Below are positions 4,331 through 64,000 of a stretch of 64,000 bases of DNA, piece by piece; positions within the stretch are counted from its first letter, which is position 1; the number at the start of each line of letters is the position of its first letter. The notes under the pieces were generated by a model. That model worked only from the letters and a program-made list of their open reading frames with translations. It ran no database searches and was not told where the DNA came from. This DNA is from Onthophagus taurus (lineage: Eukaryota; Arthropoda; Insecta; Coleoptera; Scarabaeidae). The stretch covers positions 17,856,001-17,920,000 of the forward strand of contig NC_091968.1 in NCBI RefSeq assembly GCF_036711975.1, in the 5' to 3' direction. Made by a program: the position numbers and the translations under genes.

Positions 4331-5400
4331 GAGAAATATAGATACATATTGACTTTATTTATAGGAACTAAGAAACGACTTTCATCTTAAATTAAAGTTT
4401 AAGCTTTGATCTTCGTACGTACGTATAATAAGTAATACATTTGATGATAAAGTTGCATTGTAAAATTGAAGAATGTCATTGCTTAATTATAGCAAAAATC
4501 GAAAATATTTATTAAAATTTAAAAAATCATATCTACTTTATTTATGGGAACTAAGAAACGATTTTTATCTTAAATTAAAGTTTAAGCATTGGTCTTCATC
4601 TATATGTATAATAAGTAATACATTTGATGATAAAGTTTCATTGTAAAATCAAAAAATGTCATTGCTTAATTATAGCAAAAATCGAATGTATTTATTAAAA
4701 AATCGTATCTACTTTATTTATAGGAACTAAGAAGCGACTTTTATCTTGAATTAAAGCTTAAACTTTGATCTTCATGTCTATGTATAATAAGTAACACATT
4801 TGATGATAAAGTTTCGTTGTGAAATCGAAAAATGTCATTGCTTAATTATAGCAAAAATCGAAAATATTTAATAAAATTTAAAAAATCATATCTACTTTAT
4901 TTACAGGAACTAAGAAACGACTTTTATCTTGAATTAAAGCTTAAACTTTGATCTTCATGTCTATGTATAATAAGTAATACATTTGATGATAAAGTTTCGT
5001 TGTAAAATCGAAAAATGTCATTGCTTAATTATAGCAAAAATCGAAAATATTTAATAAAATTTAAAAAATCATATCTAGTTTATTTATAGGAACTAAGAAA
5101 CGACTTTTATCTTGAATTAAAGTTTAAACTTTGATCTTCATGTCTATGTATAATAAGTAATACATTTGATGATAAAGTTTCTTTGTAAAATCGAAAAATG
5201 TCAGTGCTTAATTATAGCAAAAAACGAAAATATTTGTTAAACTTTAGAAAATCATATCGACTTTATTTATAGGAATCAAGAAACGACTTTTATCTTGAAT
5301 TAAAGCTTAAACTTTGATCTTCATGTCTATGTATAATAAGTAATACATTTGATGATAAAGTTTCTTTGTAAAATCGAAAAATGTCAATACTTATAGCAAA
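4331..5400. repeat. Tandem repeat family S1 (~183 bp), downstream of APN copy A
   Basis: About six units spaced 183 bp apart (one 176). Markers are GTCATTGCTTAATTATAGC, TTTATTTATAGGAACTAAG and ACATTTGATGATAAAGTTT. The much larger array at 18371-22850 is the same family. Confidence 0.9.
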
Positions 5401-53700: not shown

Positions 53701-56700
53701 GCAAAATATGGGAGATTTTATTACTTAGTCGTCTTCGGCGTCTCATTTTACATCTTTTATACTCCATATGTCCTATGCCTAACATTAATAGTTTGAGAAA
53801 TAATTAGGGTTTTTTGAAAAATGCTCACATATCATATCGACATTAACCTAGTGTGCCATGAAAAACAAATGTTTAATGACTTATTGACAAACGTCAAAGT
53901 CTGATTTACGTTGTTTGATGCTTGTGAGTCTGAAACCAGATAAAATGGATATTAATAACGTAAATAATGTTTATACAAATAAAGAAATCCATAATTTATT
54001 ATAATTTATTTTTTGTGCACGAAAAGTGCGACAAAGTTCTTAGTAGAACTTGCAGAATGTTTAATGAAAATTATCCGCATTTACCTCCGATGACAAAAGG
54101 TAAATTTAGAAAAATAGAAGCAAATTTTTTGCATTTTGGACGAATTAATCACGTGTTAAACTGACCAAAAAATGTAGTAGATAATGCAACGGAAGAGGTG
54201 AATGCCTTGACTTATTTCGAGCCCAGTCCCAACACCTCAATTCGAGCTGCCAAAGAAGATCTAGGAATCATACTACGAACTTTGTCGCGCTTTTTATGCA
54301 TAAAAAATAAATTAAGAATTTCTTGATTTGTGTAAATAGTACTTTCGTTATTGTTATCGATTTTAACTCTTTTCAGTACTAATATTAAGGGACATAACAG
54401 ATAATTATTTGCTCACATGCATCAAGTGAGGTAAACAAGTGAGTCTTTGACAAGAACTCATTGAGAAGGCTTGTTTTTCATGGCACACTAGGCTAAATAT
54501 CCATATGATATGTGTGCATTTTTCAAAAAACCCCAATTATCTCCTAAACTATTAATGTTAGGTATGGGACATATGGGATATAAAAGATGTAGAATGAGAC
54601 GCCGAAGACGACTAAGTAATAAAATATGGGGGGTGCCATTTAAAAAAATGAAGTTATGGTACTTCCAAATTTTGAAAAGTTAACGTGCCATAGTAAAGTG
54701 ACCAAACGTTCTAGACAGCCGTTCTCGGCACCAAAACATACTCCATCATGTTGTTTAAGCATATTCTGAATCCTAAATTGATATCCCAAAAATCGAGTGT
54801 TCTCTGATTTTTTTAACAAATGTCTGCTGGAGCAGATTTTTCTAGAAAAATTCGAAAAACTCGAGAACGGCCGAATCAAATTGCAAAAAGTAAACTTATT
54901 TATAAACCCTGAAAACAGACAAATCCAAAGATGTAAAAATATACAGGGTGTTCCATTTAAAAAAATAAAGTAGATGGCGACTTCCGGTATAACCGGAAGT
55001 GCAAGAAATCTGAAAATATTTTAGTCGAAGAGATCGTAATTGATAATACTTAAGTCTGAATTCTCAAATTTTTATTTTCGCCAGAACCCCAGAAACGTCT
55101 AATGACCGGTCTCGCTGAGACACCCTGTATATGTACCGTGCAAGGCCAATAGATGTCGTAATTTAATCCAATTCTGCGATAATTCTGACTGTGCCTCGAC
55201 ATTACCACTTCTGACAATGATAAATGAATACCTTTTCTATGTTAATACGCAACTACTATCTTTACTTTAAAGCTGAAGCAGCAGACAGTTTATGCCAAGT
55301 CCGTGCAAAAGAAAATCGTGTAGTTAGACGTCTAAGTTAACTTTTTGAAACTAAAAAGGTGTTGTAATTGCTTACAGCCAATACCAGGAAAATACATTTG
55401 CCTTTGGTAGAGTTGTTATTCAGTTTTCTGTATCAAATGCAAGTTCAAATTATTTTATCAAAGCCATAATTTTACTGTTTATATGTTTATAATGTTATCG
55501 TGATTTATTTTGTAATAAAATGTCTTATAAATATACAGCCAATACCAGGAAAATACATTTGCCTTTGCTAGAGTTGTTATTCAGTTTTCTGTATCAAATG
55601 CAAGTTCAAATTATTTTATCAAAGCCATAACTTTACTGTTTATATGTTTATAATGTTATCGTGATTTATTTTGTAATAAAATGTCTTATAAATATACTAA
55701 TCGCATTTTTTGTATCCTTTTTAGTCTCAACGAGGAAGACACATTTTAGTACCAAATATCAATAAAAAGCTATTCAAAAAGATATGTACAAGATGCGGCA
55801 AAACAGGTTAAACAGTTTTGGGCATTGTGTCATTTAGGAATCATGTTATTTTAAAAATAATGTCTTCAATATGGCAGCCATTATCAGCAACATACTGTTG
55901 GAGGTCCTACATCACTCCTCAGAGAGCTGTGTAAGGTGTAGCTCCGTCTTGCTGGAAACACATCCTCAATATTTGTTCTTCCTTTTTTTTCACTCTTGCC
56001 TGCAAGAAATTTCGTAACATTACCACATATCGTGCCAAATTCACGATCACAGTGAGATTCTTCCTCAAAAAGTATGGGCCTATGGCGCCATTTTGTGATA
56101 CGGCAGCCCACACCGTAAATCCCCGTCGTTCTGGCATATTAGCGTGCTACCTGATATCTTTAGCTGTCTAACCTAGGACTGATTTGTGTTCCCATTAGAT
56201 ATAACAATGTTGGGCAGAATGTTGAAGTATCGCCAAAGTGTTTTCTGTGTTACGACTACATGGCAAAGCCACAATGTGGTTTGTTCCAAAATATATTGAG
56301 CTTATGGCTCGATGATTTTTATTGTTGCCACTTAAAGTATGCGCAACCTATGCTCCACACTTCTAAACTTTTCCCATTGAGTGAAGATGCTTCTCCCTTT
56401 TTTCTATCAATTCACTTGTTGTTTAACTCAATTGAACGACCAGAACGAAACGGGTCTTTGAGATCAAAATCCTTTTCCATGCAAAAAGGAGAGATTAAAT
56501 TAATGATATATATAGTCCATACAACGAGTAATACAAATGACTAATCAATGAAGTTGTGTTACTCATTTTCTCCTATTTATTAATTTAAATTTACTTCTAT
56601 TTATTTAATTTATATACAAATATTAATTTGATTTATTATTAATTTAGATATCAAGGATACTGGTGGCAACCAAAAAGTACAGATGGAATATTTCGAATTT

Positions 56701-57500
56701 TATACGAAGAGGTCGACGACGGCGACGTAAAACTATTCTGTTTCCCAAGTTCGCAAGGAGACGCTTCGGACGTCGAAGAATTTCGCTTCCCGCGAGCCGG
56801 ATGTGCCAATTCTAAATCGTATTTAAAAATGATCGAATTCAAAGTTAGCGAAACGAAACAAATCGACGATGTGTGCATGTTAGAACTTCAATTCTCCTTA
56901 TCCGTACTGTTTCCATGGATGGAATACGTCGTAAGAGCTGGATGGACCCCCGACGCCAATCACATTTGGGTTCAACTTTTAGATCGACGTCAACAACGTT
57001 TAGAAATTGTTCTTTTATCACTTAGTAATTTCACGGAAGTTTTGCCAATGTACGATGACTCATCCGGTAGTACGGAAGCGGGAAGTCCTTTGGTTCAAGT
57101 ACTTTATTGTCAAGAATCGAACGTTTGGGTGAATATTCACGATTTATTACGGTTTTTACCAAGTCAGGAACCGCACGAAGTCAAATTTATTTGGGCGTCT
57201 CAAGATACCGGATTTAGACACTTGTATTTGGTGACTGCTCAGATTTTAATGGAAGCGCCGGAAACGTCGGAGTGTTTGTTTTTGCAGCCCAGGATTATTA
57301 GTAATATTGCGTTAACTCAAGGAAATTGGGAGGTTTTATCCAGGGATATTTGGGTTGATGAAAAACGGCAGTTGGTTTATTTTATGGGATTAAGAGAAAC
57401 TCCGTTGGAAAAACATTTGTATGTTGTTTCGTTGAAGAGGCCAGGGGAGGTTAGATTATTAACCAGACCTGGGTATTCTTATGTTGTTGATTTTAATGAG
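50712..57500 (+). CDS. DPP8/9: DPP8/DPP9-type dipeptidyl peptidase, N-terminal half (gene continues beyond window)
   Basis: Cytosolic serine peptidase of family S9B that cleaves dipeptides after proline. Exons are 50712-51373 and 56648-57500, joined in frame, giving 505 residues. The donor TTTTCAAG|GTAAAT and acceptor TTTAG|ATATC restore EEFSRYQGYWW, a conserved segment of the family. Further family matches are SWSELKGI, REEQLQFERRR, LTYAHKG, SAGVPSYVMQEEF, VRAGWTPDANHIW, LLDRRQQRLEIVL, VWVNIHD and the GFRHLYLVT stretch, all from the beta-propeller region. The exon ends at GATTTTAATGAG|GTAAGA. The alpha/beta-hydrolase catalytic domain is not in the window, so intron 2 exceeds 6.5 kb. The ATG at 50712 has a purine at -3 and G at +4; an in-frame TTG nine bases upstream is not used. 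Intron 1 (5.27 kb) is full of transposon debris. Confidence 0.93.
51728..52020 (+). pseudogene. Possible LINE ORF1 (coiled-coil) fragment
   Basis: Reading from ATG at 51732 gives a charged sequence with stops (KGKEADNEGIKLVMQQMR; then VNKKMEQVESRMEKKLLEAW), like the coiled-coil start of a LINE ORF1/gag protein. Weak support. It lies inside intron 1 of the peptidase gene. Confidence 0.3.
52205..53100 (-). pseudogene. hAT-family transposase remnant (ZMYM1-like)
   Basis: Minus-strand frame 52680-53057 gives SAALCRHETCIIISACIISK, VANVLQSKGLDLLQCTNHI and ASTNRIAEEI, then further down IPYLDSLTSALENRF and, near 52240-52300, STSTIERSFSTLRNMVK. These are the middle and C-terminal dimerisation blocks of hAT transposases like those in zinc finger MYM-type 1 proteins. 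The frame is broken and the N-terminal zinc finger and first catalytic region are absent. Confidence 0.8.
53212..55127. mobile_element. 1.9-kb foldback element with TA target and ~650-bp arms
   Basis: CAGGGTGTCTCAGCGAGACC starts at 53212 and its complement ends at 55127, with TA outside each end. The arms pair for about 650 bases (53212-53872 with 54470-55127). Each arm begins with a ~185-bp module (53212-53397, 54944-55127) that itself has CAGGGTGT/ACACCCTG ends and contains the ACTTCCGGT/ACCGGAAGT palindrome. The loop (53873-54469) holds a transposase fragment. Confidence 0.9.
53949..54320 (+). pseudogene. Transposase N-terminal helix-turn-helix region captured in the foldback loop
   Basis: Reading from ATG at 53945 (NVYTNKEIHNLL, a stop), then the next frame (53967-54164) FVHEKCDKVLSRTCRMFNEN and FRKIEANFLHFGRI, another stop, then ATEEVNALTYFEPSPNTSIR and AAKEDLGIILRTLSRFL. 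This is the order of the DUF4817-type region plus the second HTH of insect mariner-like transposases. No catalytic domain is attached. Confidence 0.7.
55374..55695. repeat. 161-bp direct tandem duplication
   Basis: ACAGCCAATACCAGGAAAAT starts at 55374 and again at 55535. The two 161-bp copies differ at two or so positions. It is a recent duplication in intron 1 of the peptidase gene. Confidence 0.92.
55884..56140 (-). pseudogene. Mariner-like transposase fragment (catalytic core)
   Basis: Minus-strand frame 55919-56137 gives PERRGFTVWAAVSQNGAIGP-Y, ARYVVMLRNFLQ and CFQQDGATPYTAL, the first beta-strands to the second catalytic Asp of DUF4817-class transposases. The frame then runs out after a deletion. 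It is not functional. Confidence 0.75.
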
Positions 57501-57710
57501 GTAAGAATTATTTTTTTAACTTAAATTTGTTTTTATTATTAATTGACGTTTCCGGTATTTTTGGGTTTGTAATTAAAAAAATGGTAAAAATGTAACACAA
57601 TGGTAACTGCCCGCTTTTCTATGAAGCTACCGTTGTAATTTTTAATAAACCATTAATTTTGATGTAACTTTACGTGAAACTGCAATTACAATGCATATAT
57701 TATACAGTGT

Positions 57711-57890: not shown

Positions 57891-58167
57891 TTTTTTTTCA
57901 TATTCAAATTCTTTATGCTAAAATAGTTTTGCAATGAGTTTATTTAAACCGTATTTCTTAGCCACTATACAAGCAACTAAGTTGAAGTATGTCAAATTAC
58001 GCTGCAAATGGAACGCAATTAGTTGTATTGGTCAATTTTATGCAGAATGGTCAAAAATTGAATTACCAATTTTCGTTATTTAATTGCAAAGAATTGAAAG
58101 TTTAAATAGAATGCCCATATGTTATTAGTTATTAGTCTAGCTTAAAGATTGTAGCTTATGATATGAT
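57891..58167. other. Intron 2 of the peptidase gene, ending in an S4 monomer piece
   Basis: Mostly unique AT-rich DNA. From about 58130 it reads CTTAAAGATT..TTATGATATGAT, the S4 landmark, cut off at 58167 by the foldback insertion. Confidence 0.6.
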
Positions 58168-58499
58168 ACTGGTGTGAAGTTATCCATAAATCCCAGCAAT
58201 AAACTTAAAACATTAATAATTCCGTAACTAATACGATTTGGGTAACCAAATTTCACACAGAGGTCACTCCTACCCTCAAGAACAGCTTACCACCCCCATT
58301 TGGTAAAAAAAATTTGTTTCAACCCCCACCCCCGAAAAAGGGATGTTTTCGCCCTGATGGGCACCTTCGAATTAAACCAAATTCTACCACATAATAGAAC
58401 ACAGTTCTAAGTATTTTTATCCATTTTCAAAACACCGTAACCCCTTACGGTTTTCGAGAAAAAAAAATCATTCTTATAAACCGCGGATGGGACTTTAGG

Positions 58500-59240
58500 G
58501 GTGAATTTGACACCGTTGGGCACCTCCAAAATTGATGAAATTTTAGGATGATTTAGAGGATGCCTTTAGCGATTTAAACCGACCATCCAAACACCGTAAG
58601 GTATAACGGTTTCCGAGAAAAAAAATTTGTTATTAGGCTAGAGGTATACAGCGCGGCGCGGACTTTGGGGGTGAATTTGACCCCGTTGGGCACCTCCAAA
58701 ATTGATGAAATTTTAGGACGATTTAGAGAATGCCTTTGGCGATTTAAATCGACCATCCAAACACCGTAAGGTATAACGGTTTCCGAGAAAAAAAAATTGT
58801 TATCAGACTCTATAAGTATACACCGCGGCGCGGACTTTGGGGGTGAATTTGACCCCGTTGGGCACCTCCAAAATTGATGCAATTTTAGGATGATTTAGAG
58901 GATGCCTTTAGCAATTGAAATCAACCACCCAAACACCGTAAGGTATAACGGTTTCCGAGAAAAAAAATTTGTTATTAGACACTATAGGTACACAGCGCGA
59001 CGCGAACTTTGGGGGTGAATTTGACCCCGTTGGGCACCTCCAAAATTGATGAAATTTTAGGACGATTTAGAGAATGCCTTTGGCGATTTAAATCGACCAT
59101 CCAAACACCGTAAGGTATAACGGTTTCCGAGAAAAAAAATTTGTTATCAGACTCTATAAGTATACACCGCGGTGCGGACATTGGGGGTGAATTTGACCCC
59201 GTTGGGCACCTCCAAAATTGATGAAATTTTAGGATGATTT
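58500..59240. repeat. Left-arm tandem repeats of the foldback (~172 bp)
   Basis: Four to five units with TTTGGGGGTGAATTTGACCC, GGCACCTCCAAAATTGATG, GACCATCCAAACACCGTAAG and TATAAGTATACACCGCGG. Spacing is exactly 172 bp between most copies. Open frames at 58574-58882 and 58975-59181 are products of the repeat, not genes. Confidence 0.92.
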
Positions 59241-59297
59241 GGAGGGTGGATTTTTGATAGAAAAAAAAACTTTTGATAGAGAATGAAATTTATTATA

Positions 59298-60049
59298 TTA
59301 ATGGTCTGTTTTACTTATAATTAAATTGTGTAATGGATTGAGAATATTATTATAATTACTTGCTGCCGCTTTCCAGACCGCTTCCAATCCTTGTTCATTT
59401 AAGTGAATGCCATCCCTGTGTAGAAATTTGTATTAAATACATAAGAAAAGAAAAATTTTCACGTTGTGTTACCCTTCCATTATGTTTCTGTTAACAATTG
59501 CTTCAATGTCGGTACAATTGATTTGCTTTTCAGCACAAAACCGTCGAATGTAATGATTGATTTCCTATAAAGGCATGGAGAGTATTTATTTATAGCATGA
59601 CATAGAAATTATAATATCTTACGTTCACAGACTCGAAGTTTTTGCAGGGAGGAATTGTGCAAATTTGTATTCCTTTAGGATTTAAGGAAAGAAGGAAGCG
59701 GAAGAGTTGAGAATATTGGGACTTCAGTTGGGATGGTGATGTTTTGTGGAGTATATCGTTAGTTCCTATCATTATAACGATATGTCGTTCAACAATATCT
59801 CCACAAAACCAAGGGGAACATGTTTTTGGAATACACTTTGCGCGCCGCAAAAGTTTTAGTATTGTTTGACCGCCTACTGCTAAGTCGAGGAAATATTTTC
59901 CGTTGCTTGTCCATTTTGATTGTCGTCCTAAAAATATATACCATTAGTAGGAATTAACTTCACATCTGTTAAAACAAATACTTACTTTGTATAATACGTA
60001 GCATTCGGCAAAAATTACTATCGCCCAAAAACAGTAATTTCGTCGGCAT
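59298..60049 (-). CDS. SGNH/GDSL-type hydrolase, four exons, inside the foldback element
   Basis: Predicted small serine esterase/acylhydrolase of 192 residues. Exons 59986-60049, 59623-59927, 59473-59564 and 59298-59415 join in frame (579 nt), all with GT-AG borders. Block I is LFLGDSN at residues 6-12 (nucleophile Ser11). Block II is the AVGGQT glycine near 40-41. Block III is MIGTND at 74-79 (oxyanion Asn78). Block V is DGIHLNEQG at 155-163 (Asp155, His158). No signal peptide is visible, so it is probably intracellular. ATG is at 60047-60049 and the stop is TAA; AATAAA follows three bases later (59289-59294). A TATA/initiator pair lies upstream. The substrate cannot be told. SGNH domains are known in ORF1 of CR1-type LINEs, but this gene is spliced and sits in a DNA foldback, with no LINE sequence next to it. 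Confidence 0.88.
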
Positions 60050-60088
60050 CTTCACTGGTCACTGGTTTTAACAAGAGATAAGCAGAAC

Positions 60089-60124
60089 AACTGATCTCTG
60101 CAATAGCTGAGGAACCTTTATATA
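60089..60124 (-). promoter_or_regulatory. TATA box and initiator of the SGNH hydrolase gene
   Basis: On the minus strand TATATAAAGG (TATATAAA at 60117-60124) is followed by ATCAGTTG, whose A (60092) lies 32 bases from the first T of the TATA box, the standard arthropod TATA-to-TCAGT spacing. The predicted leader to the ATG is 42 bases. Confidence 0.65.
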
Positions 60125-60279
60125 TTATTAAGTTCTTACCTGTGTTACAGTAATATCCCTGGCTATGATTGGTCAAAGCCGGTGTAAGTGTACTTACAAT
60201 GCACTAACTCGTAAGCCACGTACCTGCTTAAGTGACCTTTTTACTGAAAAAAAGTTAAAAAGGAATTCCCTGTACATTT

Positions 60280-60900
60280 ATTAACATCAAAAATAAGTTT
60301 CTGAATATCACTATTTCTTTATTAACTTCGCGCTTCTAAATGAAGACGTCGTTACCTCGGCAAAATATTAATATATATATATTATATATTTAATTAAATA
60401 TAACTATATTTGTAATTTATAATTTATATTATATATAAATATAATAACTTATTTATACACAATATATTATATACCTAAAAATATTAACGAAAATATCGAA
60501 GCAGATTGATTCTAAAAAGAACCGATAAAATATCCATAAAGCGCGAACTACCGCAAAATATATCAACTAGTGATCTCCGTCCCCAATAGAATAGTTTAAG
60601 CACATTTATAAGTTTACTCCTCACCCTTCTGGCAAAATCTAAAAAATGTGTATAACGCTCTAAAACAACGCCGAATAAGTCGGCAACTATTTTCCCGGAA
60701 TGCACTTATAATGCAAAAAATATAGACATATTTTTTCCTTAATACCTGCGCCTTTTGTAACTGCACGTGGCGGAGTACTTACCCTTTGTCAGTAACGACT
60801 AAAAGCTCATAAAACTACAAAATGCCTTTCTTAACAAAATTTATTTTTTCCATGAAATATTAAGAGTTTCGCAGTTTTCATAATCTATTAAAATCGCTAA
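60280..60900. other. Right centre of the foldback, unexplained open frame
   Basis: A TA-rich run (60360-60480) is followed by a minus-strand 73-codon frame (60484-60705). It is preceded directly by an in-frame stop and has no ATG. Its composition (LERYTHFLDFARRVR and SRFMDILSVLFRINLLRYF) looks protein-like. I cannot assign it. It could be a degraded exon of a second gene or chance. Confidence 0.35.
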
Positions 60901-60959
60901 AGGCACCTGCTATCTGGTCTACATACGTGTACAATTTAATAACAAAATTTTTTCTCTGA

Positions 60960-61400
60960 AGCCGTTAAGGGTTACGGTGTCTTGATGGTCGATTTAAATC
61001 GCTAAAGGCATCCTGTAAATCCTCCTAAAATTGCATCAATTTTGGAGGATCAAATTCACCCCCAAAGTCCGCGCCGCGGTGTATACTTATAGAGTCTGAT
61101 AACAAATTTTTTTTCTCGGAAACCGTTATACCTTACGGTGTTTGGATGGTCGATTTAAATCGCCAAAGGCATCCTCTAAATCGTCCTAAAATTGCATCAA
61201 TTTTGGAGGTGCCCAACGGGGTCAAATTCACCCCCAAAGTCCGCGCCGCGGTGTATACTTATAGAGTCTGACAACAAATTTTTTTTCTCGGAAACCGTTA
61301 GACCTTACGGTGTTTGGATGGTCGATTTAAATCGCTAAAGGCATCCTCTAAATCATCCTAAAATTTCATCAATTTTGGAGGTGCCCAACGGGGTCAAATT
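60960..61400. repeat. Right-arm tandem repeats of the foldback (~172 bp, inverted)
   Basis: Two to three units complementary to the left-arm repeats (CCAATTTTGGAGGTGCCC-type and CTTACGGTGTTTGGATGGTC landmarks). One unit has a short internal deletion at about 61052. Confidence 0.88.
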
Positions 61401-61735
61401 CACCCCTAAAGTCCCATCCGCGGTTTATAAGAATGATTTTTTTTCTCGAAAACCGTTAGGGCTTACGGTGTTTTGAAAATTGATAAAAATACTTAGAACT
61501 GTGTTCTATTATGTGGTAGAATTTGGTTTAATTCGAAGGTGCCCATCAGGGCGAAAACATCCCTTTTTCGGGGGTGGGGGTTGAAACAAATTTTTTTTAC
61601 CAAATGGGGGTGGTAAGCTGTTCTTGAGGGTAAGAGTGACCTCTGTGTGAAATTTGGTTACCCAAATCGTATTAGTTACGGAATTATTAATGTTTTAAGT
61701 TTATTGCTGGGATTTATGGATAACTTCACACCAGT

Positions 61736-62040
61736 GATATGATATAACAACTATAAGATAATATTATTGAAGTTTGCAAGAAAAAATTATTAAAGAAATT
61801 GTCAAATTTATATATCAAAAATAATACGAATTTTCAAAAAATAATTCGACTGTATTTTTAAGAATCTTGATATGATATATATGTGATTTAGCATATATAT
61901 GTGATGTATATGCTAAATTGTGGCTTAAAGATTCTAGTTTATGATATGATACAAAAATTATATTATAATATTGAAATTCTAGGAAAAATTATTAAAGAAG
62001 GAATTGTCAAACTTATAAATAAAAATATAATTGAAATGAG
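61736..62040. repeat. S4 satellite monomers in intron 2 of the peptidase gene
   Basis: Continues the monomer cut at 58167. It has TATAAGATAATATTATTGAA, AAGAAATTGTCAAATTTATA, CGACTGTATTTTTAAG and TCTAGTTTATGATATGATAC, the same landmarks as in the 6.6-kb array at 9181-15785. Confidence 0.85.
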
Positions 62041-62333: not shown

Positions 62334-63160
62334 TCTAGATAGTTTACTTGTTTCGGCTGTTCTTGACGAAGCGCATTCTGGAAGTCCAATTTTGGGCCAC
62401 TTTTTTGAGCATTGCTGGCCGTATGTCACGAATAACATGAACAATGTTGGCCTCCAAGGTGTCAATTGTTGCTGGTTTAACAGCATAAACCAATGACTTC
62501 ACGTGGCCCCACAGGAAATAATCGAGAGGTGTCAAATCGCACGACCTTGGAGGCCAATTGGCATGTCCATTTCTCGAAATCATCTTATCGCCAAATTTTG
62601 ATTTCAATAAGTCGATGGTTGCGGTCGCCGTATGGCACGTAGCGCCGTCCTGTTGAAACCACATCTCGCCCAGATCAATGTCATCCATATTTTCAAACAT
62701 AAAATCATGGATCATGGTGCGGTAACGATGTCCATTCACCGCAACGTGAGCTCCGACTTTATTTTTGAAGAAATAAGGTCCAATGATGCCACCAGCGTGC
62801 AAACCACACCAAACGGTGCATTTTTCTCGATATAATGGAGTCTGTAGGGTCTGTTGTGGATTGGTTTCACTCCATATGCGGCCCGTTAAGTCAAAAATGA
62901 GCCTCATCGCTGAACACAATTTTGCGATAAAACATGGGATCAGTTTCCAACTGCTCTATAGTCCAATCGGCAAAAGAACGACGCATATGATGGTCTCGTG
63001 GTTTTAATTCATGCATCAGCTGGATCTTAAACGGGTGTAGGCCAAGATCTTTGGGCAAAATTTTCCACGTAGTGGACGAAGAGAGCCCTAATTCCTGCGA
63101 CCGACTTCCGGATAGCCAAGATACAGGAGGTGCCTGAAAATCGTAAATTTCAAACACTCC
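62334..63160 (-). pseudogene. Mariner-like transposase, nearly complete catalytic part, one frameshift
   Basis: Frame 62891-63157 gives the linker (LSSSTTWKILPKDLGLHPFK; MRRSFADWTIEQL) and the first catalytic Asp in FSDEAHF. After a small deletion with frameshift, frame 62344-62919 continues RIWSETNPQQTLQTP, GGIIGPYFF, WFQQDGATCHTA (second Asp) and WPPRSCDLTPLDYFLWGHVK (third Asp), to VAQNWTSRMRF and a stop. This is a DD34D-type transposase of the insect DUF4817 class. Six to nine codons between HF and RIWS are missing. It is the least decayed transposase in the window but cannot make a full protein as it stands. Confidence 0.88.
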
Positions 63161-64000
63161 CCGTATATCAAAAACGAAGAAGGCTATGAAAATTTAGTTT
63201 GCGCCATTGTAAGTTTCACAAAAAAGTAGCTCAGGTTCGCGAAAGCCGCAACTTTCTATGTTTCATAATAACTGAGATACCCTGCAAACCCATCGAAATT
63301 TGGACACCTGTACATAGAGTGATCCATCAATGGATAAAATGAGTTTAGCTTGTGCTTTTTTAATTTTGTCTTCGTCAGTTTCTGTACCTAATATTCATTT
63401 ATCCAATCCATCTAATATTAACAAATTTTGTATGGCGAATGTTCATTCGTCGTAGTTTATTCTACCTTTTAATTTTGGCACGTTACTAAAAAATTCACGG
63501 CAGCCATTTCTGTTCTAACCTCTTTCGTTTCTTCAGTTATTTGTTTATCCATAAACACCCACTAGTTACGTTCTGGGCCCATAACCTTTTATTCTGGGAT
63601 TCTTTTATGATTGTTTAAAAAGGTTTTATTACGACTTGTTTTATAAAACATACAGCGATTCGTTTTTACCAAGTTGACAAGTTTTATCTTGTATACAACT
63701 TAACAGTGTAATAGTTTCTCTTTTCTACCGTTAGATGTCGCTTGCATCGCTTTCATTAACAACAATCACGACGTATATTGAAAAATTGCAACTCTGGAAT
63801 TGCAAAATTTTACCATGCAATTATTCCTGCGTTTCTAAATTAGGTTTCAAAGCTATTTTTAAGGACACTAATAATATGAAGAATAAAATATCAAACCATT
63901 TGCAGCTCCTCGTGCGATAATAACATTTGTAAGTTGGCCACAGATCCTTTTTGTATTAAAATAGATGAGGTACCAGAAATTTTTCAAAGCAAGTTTATAA
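63161..64000. other. Intronic or intergenic DNA, nothing recognised
   Basis: Short frames only (for example 63735-63920), without family resemblance. The next exon of the dipeptidyl peptidase gene was looked for here and not found. Confidence 0.4.

Follow-up and report, generated by a model that had tools for sequence, protein, structure and literature searches.

A spliced SGNH hydrolase gene carried by a foldback DNA transposon family in the dung beetle Onthophagus taurus

A foldback DNA transposon of Onthophagus taurus carries a spliced gene for an SGNH hydrolase as a regular payload. We describe this arrangement from the window, a stretch of 64,000 nucleotides of contig NC_091968.1 (positions 17,856,001 to 17,920,000 of assembly GCF_036711975.1), and from copies elsewhere in the genome. 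Foldback transposons are already known, and what is new within the literature searched is that a conserved, spliced gene for an enzyme is carried by them regularly: titles and the beginnings of abstracts described no foldback element with a regular spliced SGNH payload (Repbase and Dfam lie outside that scope). We consider it reasonably probable that the window holds a non-autonomous copy of the Mutator/Foldback type, moved in trans, and that its insect-derived hydrolase is mainly a passenger.

Spliced, the four exons of the gene (minus strand, 60049–59298) give an intact frame of 192 codons plus stop, with three predicted GT-AG introns of 58, 58 and 57 nt. The protein carries the SGNH catalytic blocks GDSN, GGQ, GTND and DGIH, with their Ser, Gly, Asn and His, and matches the Pfam families Lipase_GDSL_2 (PF13472; E = 1.9e-12, 48.5 bits, cut-off 32.9) and PF00657 (33.2 bits, cut-off 23.6). 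By profile and by catalytic blocks it is a member of the SGNH/GDSL hydrolase superfamily, with a predicted enzyme activity; the original prediction of four exons encoding an unbroken 192-residue protein with four SGNH blocks was thus confirmed by splicing and by Pfam. The possible TATA box and polyadenylation signal (Table 1) also stand at the positions first proposed for them. The OSK domain family (PF17182) reached 26.1 bits, just below the Pfam cut-off of 27, and there is no LOTUS domain in the 192 residues, where Pfam finds hydrolase families only. Used as a query against a database of size 5.8 billion, with the sequences sharing words as candidates (46 scored), the spliced protein had a sole match at E ≤ 1e-3, the O. 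taurus gene model P0001. This model is 92% identical to the window protein over 89% and shares with the window gene the joins between exons 2 and 3 and between exons 3 and 4. In four unspliced gene calls the similarity drops near the position of intron 3, and these were left out as evidence.

Table 1. Features of the foldback element and of its SGNH gene, in window positions.
Feature	Position	Strand	Basis or remark
Left target-site duplication GATATGAT	58160..58167	+	same 8 bp on both flanks
Whole foldback element, 3,568 bp	58168..61735		inverted repeats; termini common to 20 other loci
Left terminal arm (ACTGGTGTGAAGTTATCC...), 299 bp	58168..58466	+	99% complementary to right arm
Left tandem array, ~172-bp units, 5 counted	58445..59253	+	repeat analysis
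AATAAA, possible polyadenylation signal of SGNH gene	59289..59294	-	read by eye in sequence
SGNH exon 4 (DGIH block, stop codon)	59298..59415	-	spliced reading
SGNH exon 3	59473..59564	-	spliced reading; joins to exons 2 and 4 also in P0001
SGNH exon 2 (GGQ, GTND blocks)	59623..59927	-	spliced reading; genome exon-2 search
SGNH exon 1 (start codon, GDSN block)	59986..60049	-	spliced reading
TATATAAA, possible TATA box of SGNH gene	60117..60124	-	read by eye in sequence
Central part without recognised gene	60125..60885		2 ORFs (73, 54 aa) tested against Pfam
Right tandem array, left array's ~172-bp unit inverted, 3 counted	60886..61444	-	repeat analysis
Right terminal arm, 299 bp	61437..61735	-	99% complementary to left arm
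Right target-site duplication GATATGAT	61736..61743	+	same 8 bp on both flanks

The gene lies in the centre of an element measured at 3,568 bp with inverted arms, in agreement with the 3.57-kb palindromic element first proposed. The label 'giant' given to it then was dropped, because complete copies range from 2,553 bp (L044) to 11,751 bp and the window copy is therefore a short one. No stop-free stretch longer than 117 aa exists inside the window element, neither of two central ORFs tested (73 and 54 aa, between 60125 and 60885) matched a Pfam family, and an Rfam search gave no match; DNA folding of one 172-bp unit yielded a z of -1.96. The element is inserted in a direct repeat of about 207 bp (window 61735–62025 and 58140–58169), whose copy at 61923–62025 looks like the uninterrupted target. 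Both window arms are of the promoter-side type and differ by five changes, compared to 6–15 in 14 other A-type elements (see below) with both ends; the shared type and the fewer differences suggest arm homogenisation. In the flanking DNA, a dipeptidyl peptidase IV-like exon (56643–57524, plus strand; DPPIV_N, E = 9.7e-44) lies about 650 bp from the element, and broken ORFs at 62344–63193 (minus strand) resemble, by eye, a mariner/Tc1-type transposase, with no significant Pfam match.

The 18-base terminus of the element had 214 matches in the genome (107 + 107, with at most one mismatch) and the control had none. When the first 100 of these termini were paired, with the other 114 left unpaired, 42 complete elements (2,756 to 11,751 bp) resulted and 16 ends stayed single. 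Exon 2 lies inside 40 of these 42 complete elements, so that copies rarely lack the gene; the spliced hydrolase on a palindromic element in which no transposase was recognised, as originally predicted, is thus a regular payload of the family, and no other gene was recognised as belonging to the element itself. Two elements lack exon 2. In L072 the middle (1,501 of 3,148 bp) consists of inverted arrays only. In L071 the middle (1,701 of 3,504 bp; C6:1793000–1794700) contains two stretches that resemble each other, and the one tested matched a piggyBac-type transposase domain (DDE_Tnp_1_7, E = 1.2e-17). These two centres indicate that the payloads of the family can differ.

Close inspection covered 21 loci, the window and 20 others retrieved by their termini, with both ends present in 18. 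All 20 other loci have at least one arm with arrays (both arms in 17; in the other three, one end lies within the retrieved DNA) and this, together with the 214 termini against none in the control, indicates that the element is not a product of chance. The hydrolase core is full in 18 of the 21 loci and partial in two (L044 and L055); the retrieved stretch of L049, which covers part of the element, has none. Target duplications are exact in 17 of the 18 two-ended copies, window included: 9 bp in 13, 8 bp in two (the window and L053), 10 bp in one and, inside an AT repeat, 11 bp in another, with an imperfect duplication in L044. Arms, arrays and core explain all 21 loci except for 2.7 kb in L039, 0.8 kb in L056 and the last 387 bp of L049; we recognised no transposase of the family in the 21 loci, where only these extra segments leave room for one. 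By eye, the segment in L039 (2565–5263) is a truncated Gypsy-like retrotransposon, with a short duplication, in the foldback centre. That in L056 (4873–5700) is an array insert with a short ORF (5146–5355, minus strand) resembling, also by eye, the end of a hAT transposase.

Long inverted arms with tandem repeats and duplications of 8–11 bp, mostly of 9 bp, are Mutator/Foldback traits, and in its duplications, long arms and arrays the family fits this type. Target duplications of 8–9 bp are found in other superfamilies too. Close known systems are Rehavkus and, grouped with it, the FB/NOF-type foldback elements of insects. The architecture has a precedent in Tm1, a Mutator/Foldback family of root-knot nematodes that, in the sections of PMC3169594 drawn on here, likewise has composite inverted arms that vary in length and contain internal repeats, target duplications that are mostly 9 bp long and members that are mostly non-autonomous, with a distinct conserved non-transposase payload in one class. 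According to the same sections, the payload of that class, Tm1-HH, is a histone-hairpin motif and not an enzyme, the Tm1 repeat has about 14 bp whereas that of the Onthophagus element has 172 bp, and Tm1 includes a member with a FLYWCH/MULE transposase, unlike the 21 Onthophagus loci, where none was recognised (PMC3169594). Rehavkus also shares 9-bp duplications, inverted ends of 26–400 bp, a minisatellite and arthropod hosts (Table 1 of a Mutator survey, PMC6446971), but it has a PHD-finger transposase, with no such protein seen in the Onthophagus element, and its entry in that table lists no SGNH gene.

A genome search with exon 2, in which all 122 candidates were scored, produced 112 matches (59–100% identity) at 101 places; 62 of them were ungapped and full length, 18 with 97–100% identity and 44 with 92–94%. 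Wherever the DNA was inspected (49 of the 101 places) we found element copies or remnants, the weaker matches L059–L070 and L073 corresponding to decayed or partial copies. Likewise, a firefly relative used as query had 68 matches, all of them at exon-2 places already found. No separate intact host gene appeared among the 101 exon-2 places (DNA of 49 inspected) or the firefly-query matches and, at the sensitivity of these searches, the SGNH gene appears in O. taurus solely as transposon cargo. Within that scope we rejected a matching single-copy host gene; the outcome that was to count against the original prediction, copies without the gene and a single-copy host match, did not appear, with 40 of 42 complete elements holding exon 2 and matches at 101 places. 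At C7 of G000, four hydrolase fragments (30796912, 30809441, 30821655 and 30835059) lie some 12–13 kb apart, spaced as in a large tandem duplication.

The copies belong to three types, A (which includes the window), B and C. Integrity was analysed in 41 distinct copies whose core is complete; these were mostly picked as best matches and are therefore not a random sample. Frame, splice sites and catalytic motifs are intact in 18 of the 41, all of type A, and these intact copies retain every splice site and every catalytic motif; in the others, either only the frame (seven copies), only the splice sites (five) or neither (11) is intact. Type B, with 13 near-identical copies among the 41, carries the changes G76R, N78K and H158Y, by which the catalytic Gly76, Asn78 and His158 are gone, and its intron-1 donor is off its aligned place. 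That type B amplified without catalytic residues shows that amplification does not require an active enzyme in cis. Type C, older than the others and with deletions, retains GTND, and L064 has a DDIH remnant; compared to the window copy, the exon-2 stretches of L061, L064 and L070 show 90–94% identity, and that of L069 81% with gaps.

The dN/dS ratios varied widely: 0.95–2.41 between the window and eight A copies, 0.36 between A-major and L043, 0.76, 1.04 and 1.57 between three A copies and B, 0, 0, 0.13 and two undefined values between B and five B copies, and 0.51 (p = 0.28) between A and C. With few changes per pair, no comparison across copies departed significantly from neutrality and, because the counts are small, we draw no conclusion on selection.

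As we picture the movement of the family, a Mutator-like transposase encoded elsewhere would bind the arms and move the elements in trans, and the arrays would change in length through slippage or recombination. The hydrolase would have entered as DNA, introns included, from a family of insect SGNH proteins that are OSK-like and stand-alone, and would then have spread with the element. Subfamily A probably still makes an esterase that, if expressed, would act on lipids or acyl groups; the hydrolase would be mainly a passenger, perhaps of occasional benefit in trans. Decay would be expected of a passenger; 18 copies are nonetheless intact, although these are young and nearly identical.

It is possible, though rather unlikely, that the hydrolase is instead an accessory enzyme encoded by the element and helping it, perhaps through an action on membrane lipids or acylated proteins; similar proposals exist for the esterases that non-LTR retrotransposons and rotifer retroelements encode. 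The near constancy of the gene (40 of 42 complete elements) speaks for such a role, as do the catalytic motifs and splice sites intact in 18 of 41 copies, the GTND and DDIH remains of the older C lineage and the ratios of 0.36 and 0.51 between lineages; those ratios, though, derive from few changes and are not significant, other pairs lie at or above 1, and subfamily B amplified without its catalytic residues. Other mobile elements do bear such esterases. In the parts of the sources used here, ZfL2-1 has an SGNH enzyme, an active and lipid-binding ORF1 esterase, but is a non-LTR retrotransposon, unlike the Onthophagus DNA element with its inverted ends (PMC3905857), and rotifer Terminons carry a GDSL esterase as an accessory gene but are giant telomeric retroelements with reverse transcriptase (PMC6431247).

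We regard it as quite improbable that a host gene was captured recently and by accident, in the manner of Pack-MULEs and with no lasting association. The retained introns agree with capture at the DNA level, and two of the 42 elements do differ in payload, which in one of them includes a piggyBac-like stretch. The three lineages A, B and C nevertheless have the payload in common, with C exon-2 stretches 81–94% identical to the window, and no parental host gene appeared among the matches at 101 places, a distant or lost parent being conceivable. A chance juxtaposition of an SGNH gene and unrelated inverted repeats has nothing in its favour and can be given practically no credence, refuted as it is by the copies, which show the same order in the retrieved loci (bar deletions, inserts and partial loci) and exon 2 in 40 of 42 end pairs.

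The mainly passenger hydrolase that we favour has relatives in other insects. A first profile of five sequences, namely four transposon sequences and P0001, retrieved 17 proteins at E ≤ 10 from 7,995 candidates scored. The best after P0001, all stand-alone, were a protein without species label (1.1e-13), two from Aquatica leii (6.6e-11 and 1.8e-7), one from Photinus pyralis (2.0e-10) and a second protein without species label (1.3e-8). Another profile, built with a thrips protein named oskar among its sequences, retrieved 847 proteins at E ≤ 1; among the best 120 of the 847 are proteins from Thrips palmi, Abscondita and Homalodisca (partial) and several from Frankliniella fusca, 31–87% identical to the thrips query. 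On the Pfam OSK domain, ten insect or insect-like relatives scored 28–71 bits, all over the cut-off of 27, and ten bacterial-type proteins 28–45 bits, one of them without a match. Eight of the ten insect or insect-like proteins outscored the best bacterial-type protein, and the transposon protein (26.1 bits) fell below nine of the ten bacterial-type ones. All four catalytic letters (Ser, Gly, Asn and His) are present in firefly proteins P0003, P0004, P0006 and P0018 and in thrips proteins P0010, P0019, P0021 and P0028. The first block is missing from the leafhopper record, and P0020, P0026 and P0034 stop short of the end. In P0034, from Aquatica leii, a single gene model joins an OSK-like stretch to a following retropepsin-like domain.

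In flies, Oskar is the protein responsible for making germ cells. When the transposon protein was profiled together with its relatives, the profiles matched the OSK domain of Oskar better than 4c1b, the structure of an ORF1 esterase, both with the thrips oskar protein included (4.3e-13 vs 1.5e-5) and without it (1.4e-9 vs 0.015); the transposon sequences alone matched neither. These matches disfavour a CR1-type origin of the enzyme, and the link to CR1-type ORF1 esterases drawn at the outset found no support. Membership of the element among non-LTR retroelements was also rejected, given its inverted ends, the absence of stop-free stretches over 117 aa and the distant match to 4c1b. The transposon protein differs from Oskar in retaining the catalytic residues, which are lost in the OSK domain of Oskar according to the part of PMC13389597 used here, in having no LOTUS domain and in its OSK score of 26.1 bits, under the cut-off of 27. 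A thrips OSK-like query had no match in the O. taurus genome (27 candidates scored), and none of the 13 stretches of viral contigs that matched a sequence pattern encodes a relative.

A direct bacterial source was proposed earlier for the OSK half of Oskar. In the portions of the two reports considered here, earlier searches for OSK relatives retrieved no similar eukaryotic sequence by BLAST and, by profile, fungal ones only, which in the first report are CAZ3 proteins (PMC7250577; PMC3084197). Oskar is defined by both of its domains together in the text consulted of PMC8662646, and stand-alone relatives would thus have been passed over. In a figure legend of PMC7250577, transposable element activity is mentioned solely as something that may have caused bacterial DNA to integrate, and among the titles and beginnings of abstracts searched there was no proposal linking the OSK domain to transposons. 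Stand-alone insect relatives with catalytic motifs do exist in fireflies and thrips, partially in a leafhopper and, found only on a transposon, in O. taurus, which makes a proper test of the origin of OSK worthwhile.

A tree of 46 rows separated insect from bacterial-type proteins weakly (75/75), with two unassigned rows on the insect side; support for this split rose to 98/97 with 43 rows (three unassigned rows left out) and to 100/100 with 38 (five more bacterial-type rows left out), also when Oskar was removed from the latter. In the 38- and 43-row trees, Drosophila Oskar, the only true Oskar included and on a long branch, groups with thrips proteins inside the insect group. In AU tests of a placement of Oskar among the bacterial-type rows, p was 0.078 and 0.025 on the same 38 rows and 0.073 with 43 rows. 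In a quick tree of 121 rows (split support 85) the nearest rows to Oskar by path were bacterial-type. Six of the insect-labelled rows and most of the bacterial-type ones have no source label, and the bacterial-type rows were chosen by similarity to the search profile. The grouping of the transposon and insect proteins with the OSK domain of Oskar, apart from bacterial-type proteins, is a lead and not a result.

A common origin of the OSK domain of Oskar and the mobile gene is unproven but testable. We think it unlikely, on present evidence, that the OSK half of Oskar came from an insect family of active mobile SGNH genes, through the fusion of a transposon-borne hydrolase to LOTUS. If true, the dung-beetle gene would be a living cousin of the source of OSK, with its catalytic motifs intact. 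In all, the mobile esterase gene points to another possible source of part of Oskar, one that can be tested, and the origin of a prominent example of bacterial-to-animal gene transfer becomes directly testable.
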